Source of the DNA: Dicyema japonicum
Lineage: Eukaryota > Dicyemida > Rhombozoa > Dicyemidae
Assembly: GCA_011109175.1 (NCBI GenBank)
Contig: RDEW01000023.1
Span: forward strand, 283,225-347,224
Direction of reading: 5' to 3'
DNA length: 64,000 nucleotides
Notes under the pieces: model-generated
The model's input: the letters and a program-made list of their open reading frames with translations, nothing else
Told to the model about the DNA's origin: nothing
The model's database searches: none
Translations under genes and position numbers: made by a program
Part shown: one piece after another, positions 18,385 through 63,467 of the stretch
Layout of the letters: every line of letters begins with the position of its first letter
Numbering within the stretch: the stretch's first letter is position 1

Positions 18385-19137
18385 CTTAATAATACACAAG
18401 TAAATCTATATTTTAAAATTTTAATTTTTTAGATTTGTTATCAACTAATACAGATATGAGAAGTCGCAAGGTTTTTATGAACGAAAGTCTATTTATCACT
18501 TCGATCAGTAAAAAGAGTTTGAACAGGTGTATACAAAAGATCGAAAGCTGTGAACTCGAGGATCCTACTTTCGGTGATCTTTACAAGACAGTAGGCCGAA
18601 AAAGACTCAAGAAAAGGTCCGAAGTTACACTCAATCCATAAATGCTGAGAAAATTTGGCAGAAAGGGGAGTATTTTCATCAAGAATGTTAGGGTTTAGAA
18701 ATAGGCCGTTATTATTTTTAGATGAAACCGGGTTTAATTTGCATACATCAATTAATTATGGGTATTCCCCAATTAGATTTCATCATTGTGATGAAATTAA
18801 AGATTTCTTTATTAGGAAAAGTGTTACAACATTTTATTTACCCCCTTATTTAACTGACTTGAACCCAATTGAAAACTTTTTTTTGTGTGAAATCTCGTCT
18901 AAATGTAATTAGACCAAGAGCAACTGTAAGAAGAGAATTGCTAACAACTATCGGATTTGTTATGAGTGGTCTCGAAACCGAGAATTTGTCCTCATATTAC
19001 AGTTTTTGGGAAAGGGTAAATAGAATTAATAACAGATTAATTGAATAAAATACTTTTTTCCTAAATTATTTATTAGTATAATATATATAACTTGGACATC
19101 ATTTATGGGAATTGGGTCAACATGTATGGGATTGAGT
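18385..19137 (+). mobile_element. Mariner/Tc1-type element, second copy with transposase remnants
   Basis: Frames 18435-18641 and 18655-18912 encode pieces of a DDE transposase: RPLLFLDETGFNLHTSINYG (first catalytic D within FLDETGFN) and YLPPYLTDLNPIENFF (second region). The right end (19085-19137) repeats the termini of the 6778-7396 element (ACTTGGACATCATTTATGGG, ATGGGATTGAGT). The left terminus is lost. Frameshifted near 18640 and 18900. Confidence 0.75.
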
Positions 19138-26344: not shown

Positions 26345-26420
26345 TGGTCCTTTTCGGGAGGGAATTAGGAGCCCTCTGGGCGTTGCCAAATCTTTTTAAA
26401 TTGGTGGACCACATAACGCC
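26345..26420 (-). ncRNA. HDV-like ribozyme-like leader (copy A)
   Basis: Minus strand: P1 GGCGTT (26420-26415) pairs with AACGCC (26384-26379). P2 TGGTCC (26411-26406) pairs with GGACCA (26350-26345). P3 CCAA/TTGG lies between. P4 is a GAGGG/CCCTC hairpin, and the linker CGAAAA precedes P2', matching the C-G-A-A junction of delta-like ribozymes. P2 is a compensated variant of the other copies. Confidence 0.65.
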
Positions 26421-26654
26421 ACGCTACACGATTATTTTTTATTTAAATTTAATATTCTTTAGTCTATATTAACTTTATCACCCCTATACATGACATTGAT
26501 TGACACATGATTTTGTTGCGCGTTGCTCACAGTGCGGGCGACATAATAAACGTGAGAAATGTTTTCACTTGTCATCACTCTCGCGCTCACGACATAATTA
26601 GTGTAGCCGGGAGAGAGATACGCGTTAATTAATATTAGTTGAGTGTGCTCTCCC

Positions 26655-26818
26655 CACTCCACTGGAGGGGTTTCCACAACTGCATGTAATGGACGTCTTA
26701 TTTTTTATGCTGATTCCGGATGGACTCTGTTTCTGTAGAAGTGGTAACTGGATACACTTAATTAGTTGTTTACTCTAACATCTTTCTCGGTGTATCCGGG
26801 GTTAATTAATGTCGTATG
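26655..26818 (+). mobile_element. Short ribozyme-family element, 3' part (second copy)
   Basis: CCCCACTCCACTGGAGGGG to the 3' end matches 34718-34880 almost base for base, including GGATACAC (26750-26757) and GTGTATCC (26790-26797) with 32 nt between, then GGGGTTAATTAAT. The ribozyme-like 5' part is not seen upstream here. Confidence 0.75.
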
Positions 26819-32526: not shown

Positions 32527-33396
32527 TCATAAAGCTAACCTGAAAGGTGACTTTCCAGTAGCACGATGAATAGAAATGTTATATTTATAAACAGTAGTTT
32601 TCAATATGTCAATCCAATTATTAGATTTGGATTGAAATAGAGTTTTTGCTAACCAACGCTTTAGCGTTTGATTATAGCGTTCCACCTGCCCTTGTGATTG
32701 AGGGTGTCTTGGTCTACCATGAATCGCCGTTATCCCCCAATCACATAATAATGCTGAAACTTCAGAGTTACAAAACTCTTTTCCATTGTCCGTGTGTAAT
32801 GTTTCAGGTGGCCCAACTGATAAAAACATGTCTTCTAAAGAATTTCTTATATTTTGAGAAGTTTTACTAATTAAAGAAAATGACCAAGAGAATTTTGAGT
32901 AACAATCAATAACATTAAGAATTCATTTATATTCTTTATTATAGGAAGAATATCTACGAGGATCTATACAATCAGCCATGAATCTTTCGAATTTATGTGA
33001 AACGGTAATCATTTGAATATCTTCACAAGTCTTTAGACTGTTGAAATGGTTGCAGGAATCACAAGTAGATACAAAATGGCGAATAATTTTTTGATTGATG
33101 CCAATGTACTTTTCGCAAATTAATTTGCACATCTTGGAAACACCAGGATGTCCAATAGAATGTTCCTTAGCTAAAATTGAGTTAATTCTAGCTTCTTGAA
33201 AGGAACTAATAACGGTACGAAGATTTCCATTACATGCAAAAAATAAATCTCCATTCAACAGTTTTAAATTCTGACATCTTCTGCGTAATGTCCGCTTTTG
33301 ATTTTCTTTAAATCCATCAGGATACTGTTTATATTCGAGATAATTCAAAATTTTCTTTAATTCATCAGGTGTATTAATGCTGAATGTAGAAGGCAT
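32527..33396 (-). mobile_element. Ginger-type integrase/transposase remnant
   Basis: From 33396: NTPDELKKILNYLEYKQYPD, GDLFFACNGNLRTVI, KEHSIGHPGVSKMCKLICEKYIG broken here, then HFVSTCDSCNHFNSLKT (HHCC zinc domain), KFERFMADCID (first catalytic D). After a stop, 32829-32527 gives TLHTDNGKEFCNSEV (second D), GRPRHPQSQGQVERYNQTLK (catalytic E) and YKYNISIHRATGKSPF. About 30 codons between the ORFs (32922-32830) are out of frame. No RT is adjacent. Confidence 0.75.
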
Positions 33397-33495
33397 AACA
33401 AAATTAAAATGAAGCGTGAAATTTTATATTTTTAAAAAGAAATTAAAAATATTAAAAAAAAGTATTATATAACATTCAAATACCATTTTCACGCT

Positions 33496-34310: not shown

Positions 34311-34639
34311 GATAAGAACTATAAATTATTTTAACTCATTATTATAAGGAAAAAGGAAAAAGAATAGTTAATTCAGCTGTTGGGAGATGCACAAGCTATT
34401 CCCACGGACAACAGCCAGAACTATAAATTGAAATAATTATTTTAAAAATTAAAATAAAATATAAATTTTTATTAATAAAAGCACCATAATATTATTTTAA
34501 CTATTCATTTTAGCTCTCCTCCTTTTAGAAACACCCAATGGCCAATCACTTTATATTTTGCCGCGTGACTCCATGTGGTGCTTCGTGGTTAATTGGTTTA
34601 AATTTTCTGTTTGTTTGTCTCTTCATCCTCTCTCTTCCT

Positions 34640-34895
34640 AATAGAGTGGCGTCATGTGATCCACCTTTCTAGGTGACGCCCAATGCCAGGCCGGCATGAA
34701 AAAGGATCATTTGCTCTTCCCCACTCCACTGGAGGGGTTTCCACAACTGCATGTAATGGACGTTTTACCCTTTATGCTGATTCCGGATGGACTCTTTCTG
34801 TAAAAGTGGAAACTGGATACACTTAATTAGTTGGTTACTTTAGCTTCTTTCTCGGTGTATCCGGGGTTAATAAATAAATAAAAAATAAAAAGAAA
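34640..34895 (+). mobile_element. Short non-autonomous element: ribozyme-like head plus LINE-like 3' stem-loop
   Basis: About 255 bp with no ORF. The 5' end (34648-34709) folds like the leaders of the 2A LINEs. The middle is CCCCACTCCACTGGAGGGG..GGATGGACTC. The 3' end is GGATACAC (34815-34822)/GTGTATCC (34855-34862), GGGGTTAATAAATAAATAA. Autonomous LINE copies end in the same style (stem, GGGGTTA, short repeats; see 63520-63470 and 5130-5083). It resembles an internally reduced LINE mobilised in trans. Confidence 0.7.
34648..34709 (+). ncRNA. HDV-like ribozyme-like fold (copy B)
   Basis: P1 GGCGTCA (34648-34654) pairs with TGACGCC (34674-34680), 7 perfect bp. P2 TGATCC (34657-34662) pairs with GGATCA (34704-34709). 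P3 CCT/AGG (34664-34666/34671-34673) sits immediately before P1'. P4 ATGCC/GGCAT is at 34683-34697. The junction before P2' is TGAAAAA; the expected active cytosine may be a C-to-T change. Order P1-P2-P3-P3'-P1'-P4-P4'-P2' is the delta-ribozyme topology. Confidence 0.6.
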
Positions 34896-34949
34896 CACCC
34901 AATGGCTTAAATCCCAACGGGCAAATTCCAGAGTAAGGTCCCTATTAAA

Positions 34950-38833: not shown

Positions 38834-39343
38834 ATGAAACATTCTTTATTAGCTTACGTCATGTGGTTCACCGTTTCTGGTGGCGTCGGATATAGTCCTA
38901 AACTATATCTAAAAAGAACCATTTGTTCTCTACCAACCAGAGGACTTCCCACTGGACGGCATTCTCTCACTGTTGGAACATTCTATCGATTGAGACTGTT
39001 GACCTCAGAAGACGTGGAACAAAATCCAGGCCCAAAGAAGTTAACAATCCAAAGTTTAAACATAAACGGGATCAGAGGAAATATTGCCGGACTTTCTTTA
39101 TTCTTGGAGAGGAACAGAGTGGACATCTGCCTTCTCCAGGAAACGAAGCTTTCAAATAACATTCATACTACTTTCTTTAACGGATACAACACAGTAAGAT
39201 CCGACCGCCGATCAGGCCAAGGAGGGGGTCTACTGACTCTTGTGAGAAAAGGAATAAAATACCTCGAGAACCCTTCTCCTTACAAAAGCTTAATGGAAGA
39301 CTCGAACAAGGAGATAATTGGAATCTGTTATAACTACCATTGA
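38834..39343 (+). CDS. LINE ORF with 2A ribosome-skipping motif and APE N-terminus
   Basis: 169 codons. The 2A consensus D(V/I)ExNPGP is exact: DVEQNPGP at 39011-39034, preceded by LRLLTSE. In a working 2A the ribosome fails to join G and P, separating the leader from the downstream protein. APE follows directly: LTIQSLNINGIRGN, ICLLQETKLSNN (catalytic E), GGGLLTLVRKGIKYLEN. The frame shifts at about 39340 (ICYNYH-stop) and APE resumes in 39318-39572 (ANVYVPPPDSC, LLCGDLNAKHPS) and 39586-39846 (SPDLSVCSPRLSP, YDLRSDHHSMIM; the SDHxP proline is lost). The exact start codon is uncertain because an ATG precedes the ribozyme; a later start is likely. 2A motifs are known in APE-type LINEs of several animals and trypanosomes. 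Confidence 0.75.
   Translation: MKHSLLAYVMWFTVSGGVGYSPKLYLKRTICSLPTRGLPTGRHSLTVGTFYRLRLLTSEDVEQNPGPKKLTIQSLNINGIRGNIAGLSLFLERNRVDICLLQETKLSNNIHTTFFNGYNTVRSDRRSGQGGGLLTLVRKGIKYLENPSPYKSLMEDSNKEIIGICYNYH
38856..38921 (+). ncRNA. HDV-like ribozyme-like leader (copy C)
   Basis: P1 ACGTCA (38856-38861) pairs with TGGCGT (38881-38886, one G-T). P2 TGGTTC (38864-38869) pairs with GAACCA (38916-38921). P3 ACC/GGT (38870-38872/38879-38881). P4 GATATAG/CTATATC (38889-38909) is a perfect 7-bp hairpin. The linker C-TAAAAA follows P4, giving the active-site C at 38909 followed by UAA. It lies about 90 nt upstream of the 2A codons. Confidence 0.65.
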
Positions 39344-39858
39344 AAGAATTGAAATTGCGAATGTATATGTTCCTCCTCCTGACTCCTGCAAGAAAAATTT
39401 CTCCTTTGACCTATCTATTTTGGACAAACTGGAGAACTTGCTTTTATGTGGAGACCTGAATGCGAAGCATCCTTCTCGGTTCCGCTACCAGTTCGCTGAT
39501 ATCAGAGGAAACCTGCTATTATCCCAAATGCAAAACTTAATAATCATCAACAACCCGAAAAAAAAACACTAGGACACCATACAACATGAAGGACATGGTG
39601 AGATCTCCGGACTTATCAGTCTGCTCGCCTCGTCTTTCTCCGATCATTAATTGGACGGTCCGTTATGACCTCCGGAGTGACCACCATTCAATGATAATGA
39701 AGCTGAACTGCGAGCCACGTTTTGTACCGAAGCCTATTCATTTCTATGATTACAAAAATGCAAATTGGACTGGCTTTACAAATTTCGTTGATTCAAAACT
39801 GCAACATTTCCACCCTGAAAATTTCTCTGAAATTTTGAGTGACTAATCACCTTATCTC

Positions 39859-40163: not shown

Positions 40164-41493
40164 TTACACGGAAGATGATTTATAAGAGGCAAAAACATGT
40201 TTATCTTTCGTATATTTTCTTCCATTAACCACCAAAACAACTGGCGAGTTGACGCGGATTGAATTAAATGACATTTTCTGCAAAATAAGTAGCAAATTAC
40301 CTCAGAAATGGAGTGTCTGCTAAAATGGGGTTCAGGGATCGCGACAGAGTCCCCCAATTTTACACCTTCTCCCATCCTCATATTATAAACGGTCACACAG
40401 ACGCAGTGCTCTTCCTTATCACAGAGTCCAAACGTGCTAAAATGCCCAAAAAAATAAACTATGGGAGAGACTGATCGGAAGACAACGAATAGACGACTTT
40501 CCCAATCACAACGGTCTCGGAATTCAGCCCCTCTGACAAATCTCCAATCAGTTTCACTTCCAATTTATATTTTTTGTCTCTGTAAGGGCCCAAAGACTGG
40601 TCGGAAATAGAGTGGCACATCAAGGTAAGTCTCTTGGAGCTCACCAATCCACGTGACCTTGTCAGATTGTCAACTTTTTCTAAAAACTCCCTGACTGTCT
40701 TTAAAAACTTCACAGGTTCCTCCCAGTCAGGATCCAGAAGGACAACTCGCTGGAAAGCGAAGAGACTCTCAGAAAATCGCTCCTCGAATAGATTTAACTA
40801 GAATCAGTCAATTTATCTCACAATTCTCTTGTTGTAGTACAAGGTGGGACTAAATTCTGCTATTTTGTCCCTTCCTGGCTTGTTGTACGCCATGAGGGCC
40901 GACTTCAAGTAAGAATCTTTATAGCCATCCACAAAAAATTGAAAAATAGGCATTTCCTACGATTTGTGGAATAATTAGATCTGAGACCCCAGGAAAGTCC
41001 ATCATTTAAGTCCAACTTTAGGGCCTCTTTGGCCATTTCCAGCCCGAGAGAATGAGTCTTTACCTTTGTCAAGGGACTACCTGTAGAGAACTGAAAGGGA
41101 TCGAAAAGTTCTTTTATTTGGGTGCTGGATTGATTACATCTAAGATACCCATCGATTTGCATTTTCAAAACAATTTATAGCTCCGTTGATATCTCCACCT
41201 CTCCAATAAGACTCTCCTAGCTCATTCCAAGCTTCCATCTTGTCAGGGAGCATTTTGATCGACCTGCTTCGATGCTTTTCAGCCAAGGGATTGTATTCGT
41301 CAGATAAATTGTAGGACCTCCCCCACAAATTATCAATCATCCCAATGTCTGCACAATGTGGAGTACTTTCAAGAGCCAAAATTAACTGGTTGTATTTTTC
41401 CTGAACAGTTTTGATGTCTTTTTGTAGCTTGTGAGTGGACTCGATTCCTTCAGAGATCAAATATGTGTCCTTCATAAGGTAGATATCATCCAA
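40164..41493 (-). CDS. TTC5: TTC5 (Strap) tetratricopeptide protein, 5' end abutted by hAT
   Basis: Exons in order: from about 41493 (first ATG 41475) MKDTYLISEGIESTHKLQKD, TPR block PDKMEAWNELGESYWRGGD, INGAINCFENANRW; 24-nt intron 41148-41125; HPNKRTFRSLSVLYR; an unplaced junction near 41085-41060; LGLEMAKEALKLDLNDGLSW; 31-nt intron 40987-40957; GNAYFSIF, then VDGYKDSYLKSALMAYNK after a 1-nt shift in an A6/T6 run (40933-40938); 24-nt intron 40821-40798; LNLFEERFSESLFAFQRVVL, DPDWEEP; OB-fold part VVIGKVVYSLSSDQSLP; 23-nt intron 40459-40437; TFGLCDKEEH, GVKLGDSVAIPEPHF; 23-nt intron 40300-40278; NSIRVNSPVVLVVNGRK; stop at 40164. TTC5 is a TPR plus OB-fold cofactor in p53/stress response and in tubulin mRNA autoregulation. 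The conserved N-terminus begins right at the hAT junction, so the first exon may be lost. The frame slip may be a real mutation or an assembly error. Confidence 0.8.
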
Positions 41494-41499
41494 GAGAGC

Positions 41500-42760
41500 C
41501 TTGGTTCAGTAACTGGGAAATAATCTCCAATTTTATTTTCAAGATTTTCGAGATGATCAATAATCAAAGAAAACCATTTTTCAGGTTAATTATCACCAAT
41601 CTTATTTTCTACTATCGGAAACATTGAAGCGTTGTTATTTCGTATTTTTCTTTTCCATAGTGACAATTTTTCTTTAAACGCAGACATTTTTCCATAGCTT
41701 CAATGTTGGAACCATTATTACCTTAACATAAATAATTGATGAAGAATAAAACCAAATAGTTAAAGGCTACTGGCTGCTCTCAGGATTGAGAGCGCATTTC
41801 TCCTTACGATCTGTAACTTCAGTATGAAATAAAAACACTGAATGATATGCTCCTAATTCTTCACAGAGTATTTTAAAAAGTCGATGATTTGTAGCCCTAC
41901 CTCGAATCAAATTCACAATCTTGACTGTTGAATCAAGTACATTTTTTAGCTCAAATGGCAGAGTTTTTGTAGCGAGTACATATTTATGAATGACACAGTG
42001 TTTCGTAATTACATGTGGTGCTACTTCTTTCACCGATGTGACAAAACCAGAACGATGTCCTATCATAGCTGGTGACCATCTGTACAAATAGATCCAACTT
42101 TATCCCAGTGAATACAATTGTCACGTAAGAAGCCAGAAAACAAATTAAAAATATCATTAGCTGTTGTTCTTGCAGTTAATTCCAAACAAAATAAAAACTC
42201 GTCATGAATAGAGTCCATGTCGACAAAACGGACAAATGCAACCAACTGATTTATAGATGTTATATCGGTAGATTCATCCAATTGTATACTAATTCTGCAT
42301 GGGCGGCCGTTTATTTTCATAACAAGTTGTTCCAAAACATTACAAGACATGTTTCGTATTCGATTCGTAGTCGTGTCATTAGATAAAGGTACATTTTTAA
42401 ATTTTTGTACGGCATCTTTATCGAGCAATATTCTTGCCATTGTCAATGCGGAAGGTTTTATTAAATTTTCTCCAGAAGAATGAGATGCTTTGTTTTTGGC
42501 AATAATTAAGGATATCTAAAATAAATGCTTCAATTATTAATACCTCATATGAAGCTAGCAGACATGGTTTATCTATTGGTCTAAATCCGAAATTACTAAG
42601 TTTTCCAGATTTATCATATTTAGTTCTCTTTGCAATAAAACTTTCGACAGTGTCAACATTTTGTGGGTGAGTTTTTTCCTTATGTCTTTTTAATTGTGAC
42701 GGCTTCAAAGAGTTGTTTCCCATGTTCGCCAGCTTCCTCAGGCTGGTTCGATTCTGGTTT
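41500..42760 (-). pseudogene. ZBED5-like hAT transposase
   Basis: 42760-42418: NNSLKPSQLKRHKEKTHPQN, TVESFIAKRTKYDKSGK. 42446-42063: FKNVPLSNDTTTNRIRNMSC, RISIQLDESTDITSINQLVA (catalytic D in LDESTD), DNCIHWDKVGSICTDG (second D region). 42087-41767: AMIGHRSGFVTSVKEVAPHV, HCVIHKYVLATKTLP, NLIRGRATNHRLFKILCEEL. Then, in broken frames, LSLWKRKIRNNNASMFP and HLENLENKIGDYFPVTE. Three frame breaks. The C-terminal dimerisation domain is missing. Confidence 0.75.
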
Positions 42761-47044: not shown

Positions 47045-47104
47045 TTTTCATGTGGGTCATCTGCTGGTGTAAAAAATTGCCTAAATTTTTAGCGAACAAA
47101 CCCA
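47045..47104 (+). ncRNA. HDV-like ribozyme-like leader (copy G)
   Basis: P1 TTTTCA (47045-47050) against TGTAAAA (one mismatch). P2 TGGGT (47053-47057) pairs with ACCCA (47100-47104). P3 CATC/GGTG. P4 CTAAA/TTTAG (47081-47092). The junction CGAACAA follows P4 and carries the active-site C-G-A-A. The segment from 47054 on is tandemly duplicated. Confidence 0.5.
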
Positions 47105-47247
47105 GCTTATTTTTTTACCAAACAACTACCAAATAGTTTGCTTGGTCGGTGGGTCATCTGCTGGTGTAAAAAATTGCCTAAATTTTTAGCGAACAAACCC
47201 AGCTTATTTTTTTACCAAACAACTACCAAATAGTTTGCTTGGTCGTG
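47054..47247. repeat. Tandem duplication, period 97
   Basis: GGGTCATCTGCTGGTGTAAA occurs at 47054 and 47151. Each unit runs to TTTGCTTGGTCG and the copies are identical over almost all positions. Confidence 0.9.
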
Positions 47248-47254
47248 GCTACGA

Positions 47255-56889: not shown

Positions 56890-58430
56890 TTATAAGATTG
56901 ATAATCAAAGACTTGATATATGTCATTTTGACGCCATTGACAGAAATCCACAATCAAAAGCCTTCTGGATATCATTCGAGCAGACATTTGATTTTTTCTT
57001 GTTTGGGATTTTTACATAAGCTATTTGATATATATATCTTTAGAGACTTTAAACACGATGTAGTCGATAGTCCTTTCTTAAAATTATACTGAAATATTAA
57101 TGAAGGGCGCATGTGTTTCAGAATCAATTTTTCAAGATTTCTCGATTGGACACAAAGGATCCTTCGGTTTCGCCGATTTTAAAATCGGATGCATTTTTGG
57201 AATATTTTTATATGTCTAACTGAGTGGTTAAATATATTGGTAAGTGCATAGATAGCCATTGAAACTAGTTAATTTTTATTTATTATTTTCGTTATTTAGG
57301 ACTTCCATTTTAGTGCTTTTATAACATCTAATCATCTTTCAATAAAAATTTCTCTTTTTGAGAATATTTCTTTCCTTGATTAGTTTGAATGTGTTACAGT
57401 CATATTTCATTCCCCGCAATTTAATTATAATTTTCCCGACAAATAAGTTTCTTCCTTTGTTTATCAATTTATTGAAATGATTCACTGCTTTGTCTAGAAA
57501 AATTAACAGCCCTGGATGAAAATATTTTTATTTATTGTCCACGTATTCTTTGAATCCTAACCAATTAGCATTTTTGTAGTCATGGAATTGAATAGGTTTT
57601 GATTTCTTAATTTGAGTACACCTCTTATTCATTATCACGTCGTAATCATATGTTACCGACTATTAAATCTGATTAGCTAAACATGAAGAACAGGTAGCTA
57701 TGTCAGGCGATGTGACAGAATATTTTTCATCGTATAAAGTTCTGGTATTTTGCTTTGGATCATTAATTATGGTTATTTTTTTCCATTTGAGAAAAGATTT
57801 CCTCTAATGTCTAAATGCTGATTCCAAAACCATGATGGTATTTCGCATTGAAATCTTCGGAAACAAGCACATTCCCCATATCATCAAGGTCTGAACGATC
57901 AAATAAGAATCATTTGGTATAAGAACCAGGGGGATAGGCATAAACGTTTCAAATTGTTATGACTCTTTCAGAAGTCTGTACTAAAATTCCAATCACTTCC
58001 GTGTTTGAGTCTTCAGACAGCTTCCTGAACATTTGTAGTTCATAGCCCCCCCCCACCTCCGCTAGAAGGTCGATCCATTCTCAAAGCAATGTATCCACGG
58101 AATTTTGGTGTAGAAGAACTTTTTAGGATATCTGTTACTTGTAAGAGGCAGATGACGATTTTCTTCCTCTCCAAGAATTGACATAATTCCATTGATTTGC
58201 CTCTGACTCCATTTATGTTTAGACTTATTATCATAAGGTTTTTATTTGGACATGGATATAATTAAAAATCACCGGAAATAAGAAATTTCAACCTGGAAAA
58301 GGTTCCAATGCGGAAAGAGAGCCATTCAGGGGAAAGTCCACTGGATGGTCGTAGAGAAATGGCTTCTTTTCGATACAATTTAAGGTTGTATCTTACGTCA
58401 CTAATAATGGTGAACCACATGACGCATGTT
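56890..58430 (-). mobile_element. Ribozyme-headed LINE (5' end to RT motif A), decayed
   Basis: From 58425: ribozyme-like leader, a decayed 2A region at about 58290-58258 (LISGDF-stop-LYPCP against LTSGDVEQNPGP), MIISLNINGVRGKSMELCQF (APE start), IALRMDRPSSGGGGGL, then PIQFHDYKNANWLGFKEYVD at about 57600-57540, and NDIQKAFDCGF (RT motif A) at about 56980. Many stops. It is the fullest linear arrangement of this family in the window. Confidence 0.6.
58360..58425 (-). ncRNA. HDV-like ribozyme-like leader (copy F)
   Basis: Minus strand: P1 GCGTCA (58425-58420) pairs with TGACGT. P2 TGGTTC pairs with GAAGCCA allowing one bulge. P4 GATACAA/TTGTATC is a perfect 7-bp hairpin unlike the P4 of other copies. 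The junction is C-GAAAA. Confidence 0.6.
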
Positions 58431-59185: not shown

Positions 59186-60020
59186 TATCATTGAATGGTA
59201 GTCACTGGAGATCATAACGGACCGTCCAATTAATGATCGGGGAAAGACGAGGCGAGTAGATTGATAATTCCGGAGATGTGACCATGTCATTCGTGTTGTA
59301 TGGTGTCTTAGTGTTCTTTATCGGATTGTAGATGATTATTAAGTTTTGCATTTGGGATGATAGCAGGTTTCCTCTGTTATCAGCTGCCTGGTAGCGGGAC
59401 CAAGAAGGATGCTTCGTATTCAGGTCTCCACAAAAAAGCAAGTTCTCCAGTTTGTCCAAGGTCGAAAGGTCAAAGCAGAAATTTTTCTTGCAGGAGCCCG
59501 GAAAATAAACATTCGCAATTTCAGTTTTCCAATGTAAGTTATAACAGAAATTTTAATTAGCTCCATGTTCGAGTCTTTCATTAGGCTCTTGTAAAGAGAA
59601 GGGTTCTCAAGGTATTTTATTCCATTTCTATCAAGAGTAGTAGACCCCCTCCTTGACAAGATGGACGGTCGGATCTTATTGTGTCGTATCCATTAAAGAA
59701 AGGAGTAGGAATGTTATTTTAAAGATTCATTTCCTGGAAAAGACAGACATCTACTCTGTTCCTCTCCAATAATAAGGAAAGTTCGACAATCTTTCCTCTG
59801 ATCCCGTTTATGTTTACGCTTTGGATTGTTAATTTCTTTGGCCCTGGATTTTGTTCCACGTCTCCTGAGGTCAACATTCTCAATCGATAGAATGTTCCAA
59901 CATTGAGAGAATGCCGTCCAGTGGGAAGTCTTCTGGTTAGTAGGGAACAAATGGTTTTTTTTAGATATAGTCTATGAGTCTATCCGACGCCACCACAAAC
60001 GGTGAACCACATGACGCACG
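59186..60020 (-). mobile_element. Ribozyme-headed 2A LINE, 5' part (second copy)
   Basis: From 60017: ribozyme-like leader, CATTTGTTCCCTACTAACCAGAAG, then LRMLTSGDVEQNPGPKKLTI (2A motif intact at 59862-59839), VNINGIRGKIVELS, and APE pieces (RGSTTLDRNGIKYLENPSLY; MDKLENLLFCGDLNTKHPSW; NPIKNTKTPYNTNDMVTSPE) down to MIMKLN at about 59190. Frameshifts and stops interrupt it. Like 38834-39850 it lacks RT. Confidence 0.75.
59952..60017 (-). ncRNA. HDV-like ribozyme-like leader (copy D)
   Basis: Minus strand: P1 GCGTCA pairs with TGGCGT (two G-T). P2 TGGTTC pairs with AAACCA (one mismatch). P3 ACC/GGT. P4 GATA..TATC is a decayed version of the copy C hairpin. The junction is C-TAAAAA. It is slightly decayed relative to copy C. 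Confidence 0.55.
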
Positions 60021-62274: not shown

Positions 62275-63467
62275 GTGTTAAAATTTGTTAAAATTATCGC
62301 CATAATCATTGTCTGTCAATTTGATGCCATTGTCAGAAATCCACTGCTTTTCTCTGGTGGTCTCATTTTCAAAACAAGTGGAATTTTATTGCACGTGTTC
62401 GCTGTGGAAGAAGATGAACAGAAGAGGATATTTATTGAAAATGTTCACCTCAAAAATGGACATCCTGGTCGTGATAGACTTCTTTCTCTTCTAAAGAATC
62501 TAGTCTAGTGGATTTTGCAGAGATAAAGTTATGGTTGTTCTCAGGTCTTGTTCACAATGTCTGGCTTATGAACACTCGACCAACTATAACACCTATCAGA
62601 GCACATACAGTGAGAGAAAGGTATTAGTTAACTATTCTAATTTCAGGTATATTTTTGATTTAGTTGATATACGACACTTCAAATTTCAATGAAAATTTTT
62701 ACTGGCTTTTGGTTGGGTTGGATTTCTTTTCCAAATTTTGCTGGACAAAACCTCTAAAGAGTAAATCGGCTACGGAGGTGCCAAGTGAAATAAAGAGCAT
62801 ATTTTTAATGTTTGGAAAACCTACCATTTTGCACACGGACAATGGCAAGGAATTTGTAAATGAAAAAATGTTCGAGTTATGCTCAACAAATGGTATAAAA
62901 CACGTCACGATACGTCCTAGGTGTCCTTGGGTGCAGGGACAAGTCGAGCGTCTGAATCAGACATTGAAAGTTATGATTTCTTCAATCTGCTTTTCAAAGA
63001 ATTTGAATTTCAAATGGATAGACATAATTGAAGAAATTACAGCATTCAACAACTTTGCACGCTCCTTTTAAATTGATGTTCGGAGCTTCTGCCAATGAAA
63101 CCATAAATAATCATTATTCAGAAGAGGAAATGAATGAAATATTCAAACAAATTGATTCATGGAATGAAGAAACACAAACTGAAGCAACTTAATATCTTGC
63201 ATGGTTTTGGTCATCAAGTGAAACTTCGAGAACAAAAGCAATTTTAAATTCAAACAATCCTGAAAGAAAAATGTTAACAAAAAGAATGTGGAAGAATGAT
63301 ATTTATATTTTAACATCGGTGATCGAGTTGTTAGAAGGGTCTATCTTGATAATAATAAAAAAACACGAAAAAGTGGCTTAAACGAACACATTGATACATT
63401 CATATATCATGTTAAAGGAGTATCTGCCACAGGATTGATTGATCTAGAAGGAGAAGATGGTGTGTGA
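62275..63467 (+). mobile_element. Ginger-type integrase/transposase, most complete copy
   Basis: 62275-62508: EDEQKRIFIENVHLKNGHPG, RDRLLSLLKNLV (zinc-domain His pair). Then CSQCLAYEHSTNYN-like remnants (Cys pair). 62664-63071: YWLLVGLDFFSKFCWTKPLK (first catalytic D in GLDFFSK), TILHTDNGKEFVNEKMFELC (second D), RPRCPWVQGQVERLNQTLK (catalytic E). After a break LHAPFKLMFGASANE, then EKMLTKRMWKND, IGDRVVRRVYLDNNKKTRKS and a C-terminal chromo-like tail to about 63460. There is no gag, protease or RT in the flanks. Confidence 0.75.

Follow-up and report, generated by a model that had tools for sequence, protein, structure and literature searches.

Self-cleaving HDV-like ribozymes were reportedly described by Ruminski in 2011 at the 5' end of the animal LINEs R4, R6, SART, Baggins and RTE, with a possible effect on translation initiation. 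LINEs that bear a 2A and an APE-type endonuclease are said to have been found in multicellular organisms by Odon in 2013. The available sections of the reports on trypanosomatid L1Tc/ingi LINEs describe the Pr77 HDV-like ribozyme as part of the 5' UTR (PMC4035085, PMC4748587). For R2, the accessible parts of the literature indicate that the cut position relative to the element end differs among lineages and that 5' junctions carry untemplated nucleotides (PMC3774820, PMC11331408), and raise a possible effect of the ribozyme on translation initiation (PMC8256844). An N-terminal 2A also appears in sea-urchin NLR proteins, according to the excerpt at hand (PMC4981915). HDV-like 5' ribozymes are known in R2 and in L1Tc, which also has a 2A; what is new in the DNA presented here is a likely start codon inside the fold. 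The open-access texts searched, in the sections they make available, report no ribozyme in 2A-bearing LINEs of multicellular organisms, no LINE HDV-like ribozyme with an internal start codon and none in a dicyemid, by which we do not claim absence from print.

The window is a stretch of 64,000 nucleotides from Dicyema japonicum, to which all positions below refer. An earlier note had proposed seven loci in it with the order P1-P2-P3-P3'-P1'-P4-P4'-P2'. All seven are present where it placed them and can be folded as described, and one delta-type pseudoknot fold fits each. The index copy, from family A, spans 38856-38921 (plus strand) and was assigned from its sequence, a covariance model and pair counts on the family. 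Its P1 comprises 38856-38861 and 38881-38886, P2 38864-38869 and 38916-38921, P3 38871-38872 and 38879-38880, and P4 38889-38895 and 38903-38909, all on the plus strand; the C at 38909 is followed by TAAAAA. The covariance model also places a second family A copy at 59952-60017 (minus strand), with a stop codon within the P4 region, and a family B copy with a CGAA junction at 58360-58425 (minus). Family C is represented at 26345-26420 (minus), with endonuclease similarity at about 26320-25121, and family E at 6211-6279 (minus), where the upstream P1 bases AAT are mutated. The family F copy at 47045-47104 (plus) has a P1 that starts 2 nt upstream (GG) and a damaged 2A, DVEPNPDQ, downstream. The seventh locus, at 34648, belongs to SINE family D and is described below.

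P1 reaches further upstream than first proposed in E (6279) and F (47045), giving AATTTTC/GAAAATT in family E and GGTTTTC/GAAAACT in some copies of F. P1 is weak in the window copies of these two families and measures just 5-6 bp, G-U pairs included, in A and B. By eye, a GG that is a candidate for P1.1 follows P1' in E, is less clear in A, B and F, and was not seen in C. The delta models of Rfam are few and narrow. No HDV-like Rfam family was matched in the window, at gathering or at E up to 10, and six small loci of families D, E and F likewise gave no such match. RAGATH-12 gives weak matches, far below gathering, at 6971-7048 (E 0.11) and 18939-19018 (E 5.3), which are two inverted repeat copies about 96% identical. 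Judged from sequence features, those tested fit membership of the HDV-like class, save the Rfam match, of which there is none, and P1.1.

A covariance model comprising P2, P3 and P4, with P1 left out, was built from five window loci. It recovers all seven, including the two outside training, at 34649-34709 (E 2e-8) and 47045-47104 (E 0.0012); five of eight family F loci searched with it did not reach the threshold of E 0.01. Pairing was counted over 83 model matches (74 distinct) in the window and 77 fetched loci, four of the matches being second elements within their respective loci. The 77 are what remains of 128 fetched loci once one F locus and the redundant copies of A, C and D are set aside. 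The covariation proposed for P2 and P4 is borne out: 86.1% of cells are paired, compared with 30-55% when the 3' partners are slid. The covariation score is 0.391 against 0.172 for shuffled alignments, and none of 500 shuffles reaches 0.391, although kinship among sequences can lift this score above shuffles without any structure. Cells changed on both sides number 212 against 66.9 shuffled (0/500), with 30-83 in the slid controls. Two further counts are unexceptional, namely the pairs with changes on both sides (16 of 21 against 14.0, a value reached by 57 of 500 shuffles) and the further pair types (43 against 40.2, reached by 55 of 500). P1, which lies outside the model, is paired in 75.8% of cells with both-side changes at four of its six pairs, in a count that takes E and F out of register because their P1 extends two or three bases further upstream. 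When strands were swapped among eight chosen copies, one per family or subgroup, the score of the own pairs was reached by 342 (P1), 24 (P2) and 5 (P4) of 40320 permutations. The P2 variants are TGGTTC/GAACCA, TGGTCC/GGACCA, TGATCC/GGATCA, TGGGTC/GACCCA and TGGCTC/GAGCCA. Comparison between copies thus indicates that the HDV-like double-pseudoknot fold in the 5' segment of several related LINE families is real.

We searched for further copies at the DNA level with the first 200 bases of each locus against the 64.7 Mb, 191-contig assembly. With 40 scored places per family, family sizes are lower bounds and further families may exist. Loose candidates number 191 for A, 107 for B, 96 for C, 1677 for D, 107 for E and 59 for F, and 30, 30, 30, 20, 9 and 9 copies were fetched, respectively. 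At least six LINE families carry the fold (A, B, C, E, F and G), G being a single copy found by chance in locus L043. The earlier description of the fold as the head of a 2A-bearing LINE family survives in its LINE 5' position and in the 2A of A and B. It is otherwise too simple, given the number of families, a 2A that is damaged in E, F and G, and a SINE at 34648. In the index element, the 2A motif DVEQNPGP (39011-39034, plus strand) is in frame with an AUG in J1/2 and is followed by a decayed endonuclease region (39035-39834, plus strand; tblastn with the protein P0001, and Pfam). An in-frame D(V/I)ExNPGP is present in family A copies (DVEQNPGP) and in a B copy, L058 (DVEMNPGP). No 2A was seen in the family C copies examined; an E copy in L065 has the stop-interrupted DI*QNPGP and the G copy has CGDVETNPGP out of frame.

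The best preserved element, L008 with its continuation L129, has the Pfam domains of an APE-type LINE (Exo_endo_phos, Exo_endo_phos_2 and RVT_1) in one ORF and ends in an AAT-rich tail of AAT repeats; Pfam gives no RNase H match in this single copy tested. Family B groups with a head have a LINE-like 5' part and 3' end, judged by eye against the end of the L008/L129 ORF, so that they look like internally deleted derivatives. A search for flank matches at the seven window loci gave no clear target duplications. The start of the family F ribozyme is duplicated in tandem (47052-47152 and 47149-47248, 99% identical). A further short repeat has the same fold, with GGCGTC and GGATCC helices, at L033:290-350, L065:210-263 and L053:706-759 (minus strand); ATT or ACT replaces its AUG and TAGCGT is missing upstream.

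The J1/2 AUG of the index copy (38861-38863, plus strand) likely starts an ORF that crosses the ribozyme, the fold being the first part of the coding sequence, an overlap absent from the earlier note. Two of 30 family A loci (L006 and L008) are open across all 564 codons fetched; in the remaining 28 the frame is broken or the AUG is absent. Continued in L129, L008 has 935 open codons through ribozyme, 2A, endonuclease and reverse transcriptase. Codon 66-67 marks the start of the endonuclease in each of five ORFs examined. After the J1/2 AUG, Met next occurs at codon 145, 145, 92 or 90, and at codon 46 in L006, the only one before the endonuclease. Of 17 chosen rows from families A-F, all but SINE D have a length from AUG to the end of P2' (55, 61, 64, 70 or 79) that equals 1 mod 3; it is 54, off this register, in the single G copy, and six of nine family F copies have an early in-frame stop. 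The best protein match, P0001, is recorded as Octopus sinensis and shows 72% identity over 66% of the query with the same start Met; a second record of that species, P0027, matches the reverse transcriptase part. Dicyema japonicum is a kidney parasite of Octopus sinensis with a genome of 67.5 Mb, 49% of it repeats, according to the available part of the genome report (PMC6736024). Circumstantially, contamination or transfer would explain these records.

The AUG could be structural first, since HDV ribozymes themselves also have an AUG at J1/2 and SINE D retains it despite a stop at the next codon. The likeness between loci might also reflect a conserved peptide (MWFT...KRTI) rather than RNA structure, as no stop interrupts the fold in the longest ORFs of A and C. 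We regard this as very improbable, because P2 and P4 change on both strands together with the residues they encode and because SINE D keeps its pairing although a stop stands at codon 2. Divergence by codon position argues in the same direction. Relative to L008, the ribozyme of six B copies has diverged by 0.25/0.24/0.26 and their endonuclease by 0.43/0.36/0.61; for seven C copies the values are 0.39/0.60/0.44 and 0.44/0.36/0.60. The ribozyme is better conserved than the endonuclease in the B comparison only, and it shows no third-position excess in either, which points to constraint on RNA rather than protein and leads us to reject protein conservation as the sole cause of the similarity. 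A chance likeness in an A+T-rich genome draws on the topology-only descriptor, which matches the window 11 times; 20 dinucleotide shuffles gave 0-6 matches, on average 3.15, and only two of the seven loci (38856 and 26420) pass it. For single loci topology is near chance, so that the case rests on comparison between copies. There, the covariation, its slide control and the position of the fold at element 5' ends make chance scarcely credible.

The earlier note had expected a catalytic cytosine in the junction before P2'. Across families A, B, C, E and F this holds for 101 of 108 copies, which have CNAA there (A 30/30, B 27/30, C 29/30, E 9/9, F 6/9; the window's own copies L001, L031 and L061 are included, and 22 of the B copies are SINE-like), and fails at 34648, which has T. 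The junction is kept in these copies although the codons over it vary (L-K, P-K, T-K, A-N). The nature of the locus at 34648 had been missed. It is a SINE (34563-34927, plus strand) in which the fold at 34648-34709 stands behind a head of about 85 nt, with AUG followed by UGA and T at the catalytic position. All 20 fetched D copies share upstream sequence, over 58-130 bases, and target duplications are visible by eye at four SINE D copies. CNAA is found in one of the 20 and T in 19, because the fetched set is biased to relatives of the window copy. Genome-wide, exact 19-mer matches number 342 for the C type and 110 for the T type, which refutes the idea of SINE D as a family-wide natural knock-out. 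Exact matches of head plus ribozyme were found for 13 of 52 C-type and 29 of 39 T-type cases (Fisher p 5e-6). We do not count this as head loss in active copies: the readable C-type copies L109, L090 and L078 keep the head. Two of these three have a head with a variant end (L078 is damaged), so that the difference is due, in part at least, to the sequence of the head. A second SINE D body fragment (26646-26810, 91.6% identical to 34712-34875) lies just upstream of the family C copy.

Both window A copies share the stretch TTATTAGCTT upstream of P1 (38846-38855 in the index copy, plus strand), and in many A copies the bases before P1 end in TAGCGT. With at most one mismatch, AGCGT abuts P1 in most copies of A (26 of 30), C (28 of 30) and LINE-like B (six of eight), and in none of the nine E or nine F copies. 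For eight A or C copies that sit in known repeats, 16 comparisons place 3-23 nt of non-host sequence between host and P1, and in all but one of the eight these bases end in TAGCGT or a variant differing by one letter; these copies were picked from repeat matches, and how many extra bases are counted varies with the point at which the alignment stops. A target-site preference as the source of TAGCGT is rejected, since the host lacks it at the eight copies whose target repeat was identified. The non-host nucleotides upstream of P1 imply that those A and C copies came from RNA uncut at P1. In Drosophila R2, in contrast, junction bases are not propagated, as cutting removes them, according to the available part of Eickbush 2013 (PMC3774820), whereas A and C copies do propagate bases upstream of P1. 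Base -7 of the leader is family-specific: most A copies have T (25 of 27), most C copies G (20 of 28). In A and in C alike, 28 of the 30 loci have unrelated upstream flanks. The exceptions are one duplicated insertion each (L009/L013 in A, L069/L081 in C), and the C loci L077 and L086 lie inside a repeat common to both. Among the 30 B loci, eight share no flank and 22 share upstream sequence, mostly over 60-130 bases, some being duplicates of longer segments.

Family E ends differently. Its bases before TTTC are A in 9/9, A in 7/9 and T in 9/9 copies, and this AAT completes a 7-bp P1. In copy L119, inserted in another ribozyme copy, there is by eye at most one further extra base. The paired AAT and this edge place the E terminus at or next to the predicted cut. 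In family F the upstream bases fit P1 in part of the copies only. An element end that coincides with the P1 start is thus indicated only for family E and, weakly, for F. Counted from the AAT position, six of the nine E copies (L111-L119) have CGTG at +25 to +28, and a seventh has it one base earlier.

We consider it fairly probable that the HDV-like 5' fold is under RNA selection, that the J1/2 AUG is used as a start, and that cutting occurs at P1 while leader-bearing uncut RNA is the template for A and C. In this group of APE-type LINEs the leading 60-80 nt form the fold, probably kept by selection on the RNA, and would most likely still cut at the first P1 base, trimming co-transcripts as in R2 and L1Tc. 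Translation would begin at the J1/2 AUG, the fold most likely also helping uncapped RNA to do so, and in families that have a 2A ribosome skipping there would free a ribozyme-encoded peptide of about 57 residues from the endonuclease/reverse transcriptase. In families A and C, the reverse-transcribed RNA is nevertheless uncut and retains its short TAGCGT leader, and cut and uncut RNA may be put to separate uses. A stricter division of labour seems to us rather unlikely: uncut leader RNA would be the insertion template and RNA cut 5 nt before the AUG the messenger, with the 2A removing the ribozyme peptide so that the catalytic protein is left unconstrained.

It is also possible, although we doubt it, that the fold is real and does not cut in A, B, C and D, providing a stable 5' end for protection, insertion or translation, or overlying a DNA promoter. 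Leaders and SINE heads upstream of P1 are indeed propagated, also in three D copies with C at the catalytic position (L109, L090 and L078, the last damaged), and the T-type sub-family of SINE D, with its 110 exact matches, exists. The available text of an R2 transgene study concludes that the 5' end of a template is well served by a stable HDV-like fold, non-cutting folds having also been tried (PMC11331408), and Pr77 of L1Tc is described, in the sections at hand, as promoter and ribozyme in one (PMC4748587). A fold that does not cut is harder to reconcile with CNAA retained across differing codons, with the C form of SINE D outnumbering the T form and with E termini at the P1 start. Alternatively, the termini may be transcription starts set by an internal promoter, the agreement between E and P1 then having nothing to do with cutting. 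The family-specific base -7 is as expected of a transcribed leader, and the CGTG of E copies stands at the site of the L1Tc downstream promoter element, as given in the accessible part of that report (PMC4748587). A four-letter motif is weak, however, and the covariation would be left without explanation, so that we find this reading somewhat unlikely. Cutting at P1, with uncut leader-bearing RNA as template in A and C, is the reading we retain.

Compared with the accessible descriptions of L1Tc/ingi, the Dicyema elements have the same 5' HDV-like fold, APE endonuclease with reverse transcriptase, and 2A. Their short, internally deleted derivatives that retain the 5' end resemble NARTc and RIME, as far as the available text describes these. 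They differ from L1Tc/ingi, on the same partial sources, in the likely start codon in J1/2 with a frame that crosses the fold, in the animal host and in the lack of RNase H in the copy tested. An HDV-like ribozyme at the LINE 5' end is shared with R2, according to the available parts of two reports (PMC3774820, PMC11331408). Unlike R2, which targets 28S rDNA, the elements have unrelated flanks (A and C), an APE-type endonuclease, a 2A and a propagated leader upstream of P1. They agree with the 2A-bearing APE-type LINEs in having the 2A close to the N terminus and ahead of the endonuclease, and differ from R4, R6, SART, Baggins and RTE in host group and 2A. Most surprising are the predicted coexistence of catalytic core, start codon and frame in one segment of 60-80 nt, and the propagated leader. 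If the retained reading is true, LINEs with both an HDV-like ribozyme and a 2A would extend from trypanosomes to an animal lineage, and the fold would be a clear case of a ribozyme also read as protein, in which any change must preserve the pairing as well as the frame. Why a catalytic core is kept when the inserted RNA is uncut is a question raised by the leader and by the SINE copies; among the latter, those with C and those with T as catalytic base form natural comparison pairs.

Two other kinds of sequence were noticed in the window. A fragment at 41140-41505, which we take to be TTC5-like, gave no match in a homolog search. Integrase-like fragments lie at 32527-33423 and 62664-63071; Pfam matches rve at 32527-32922, and the rest was recognized by eye.
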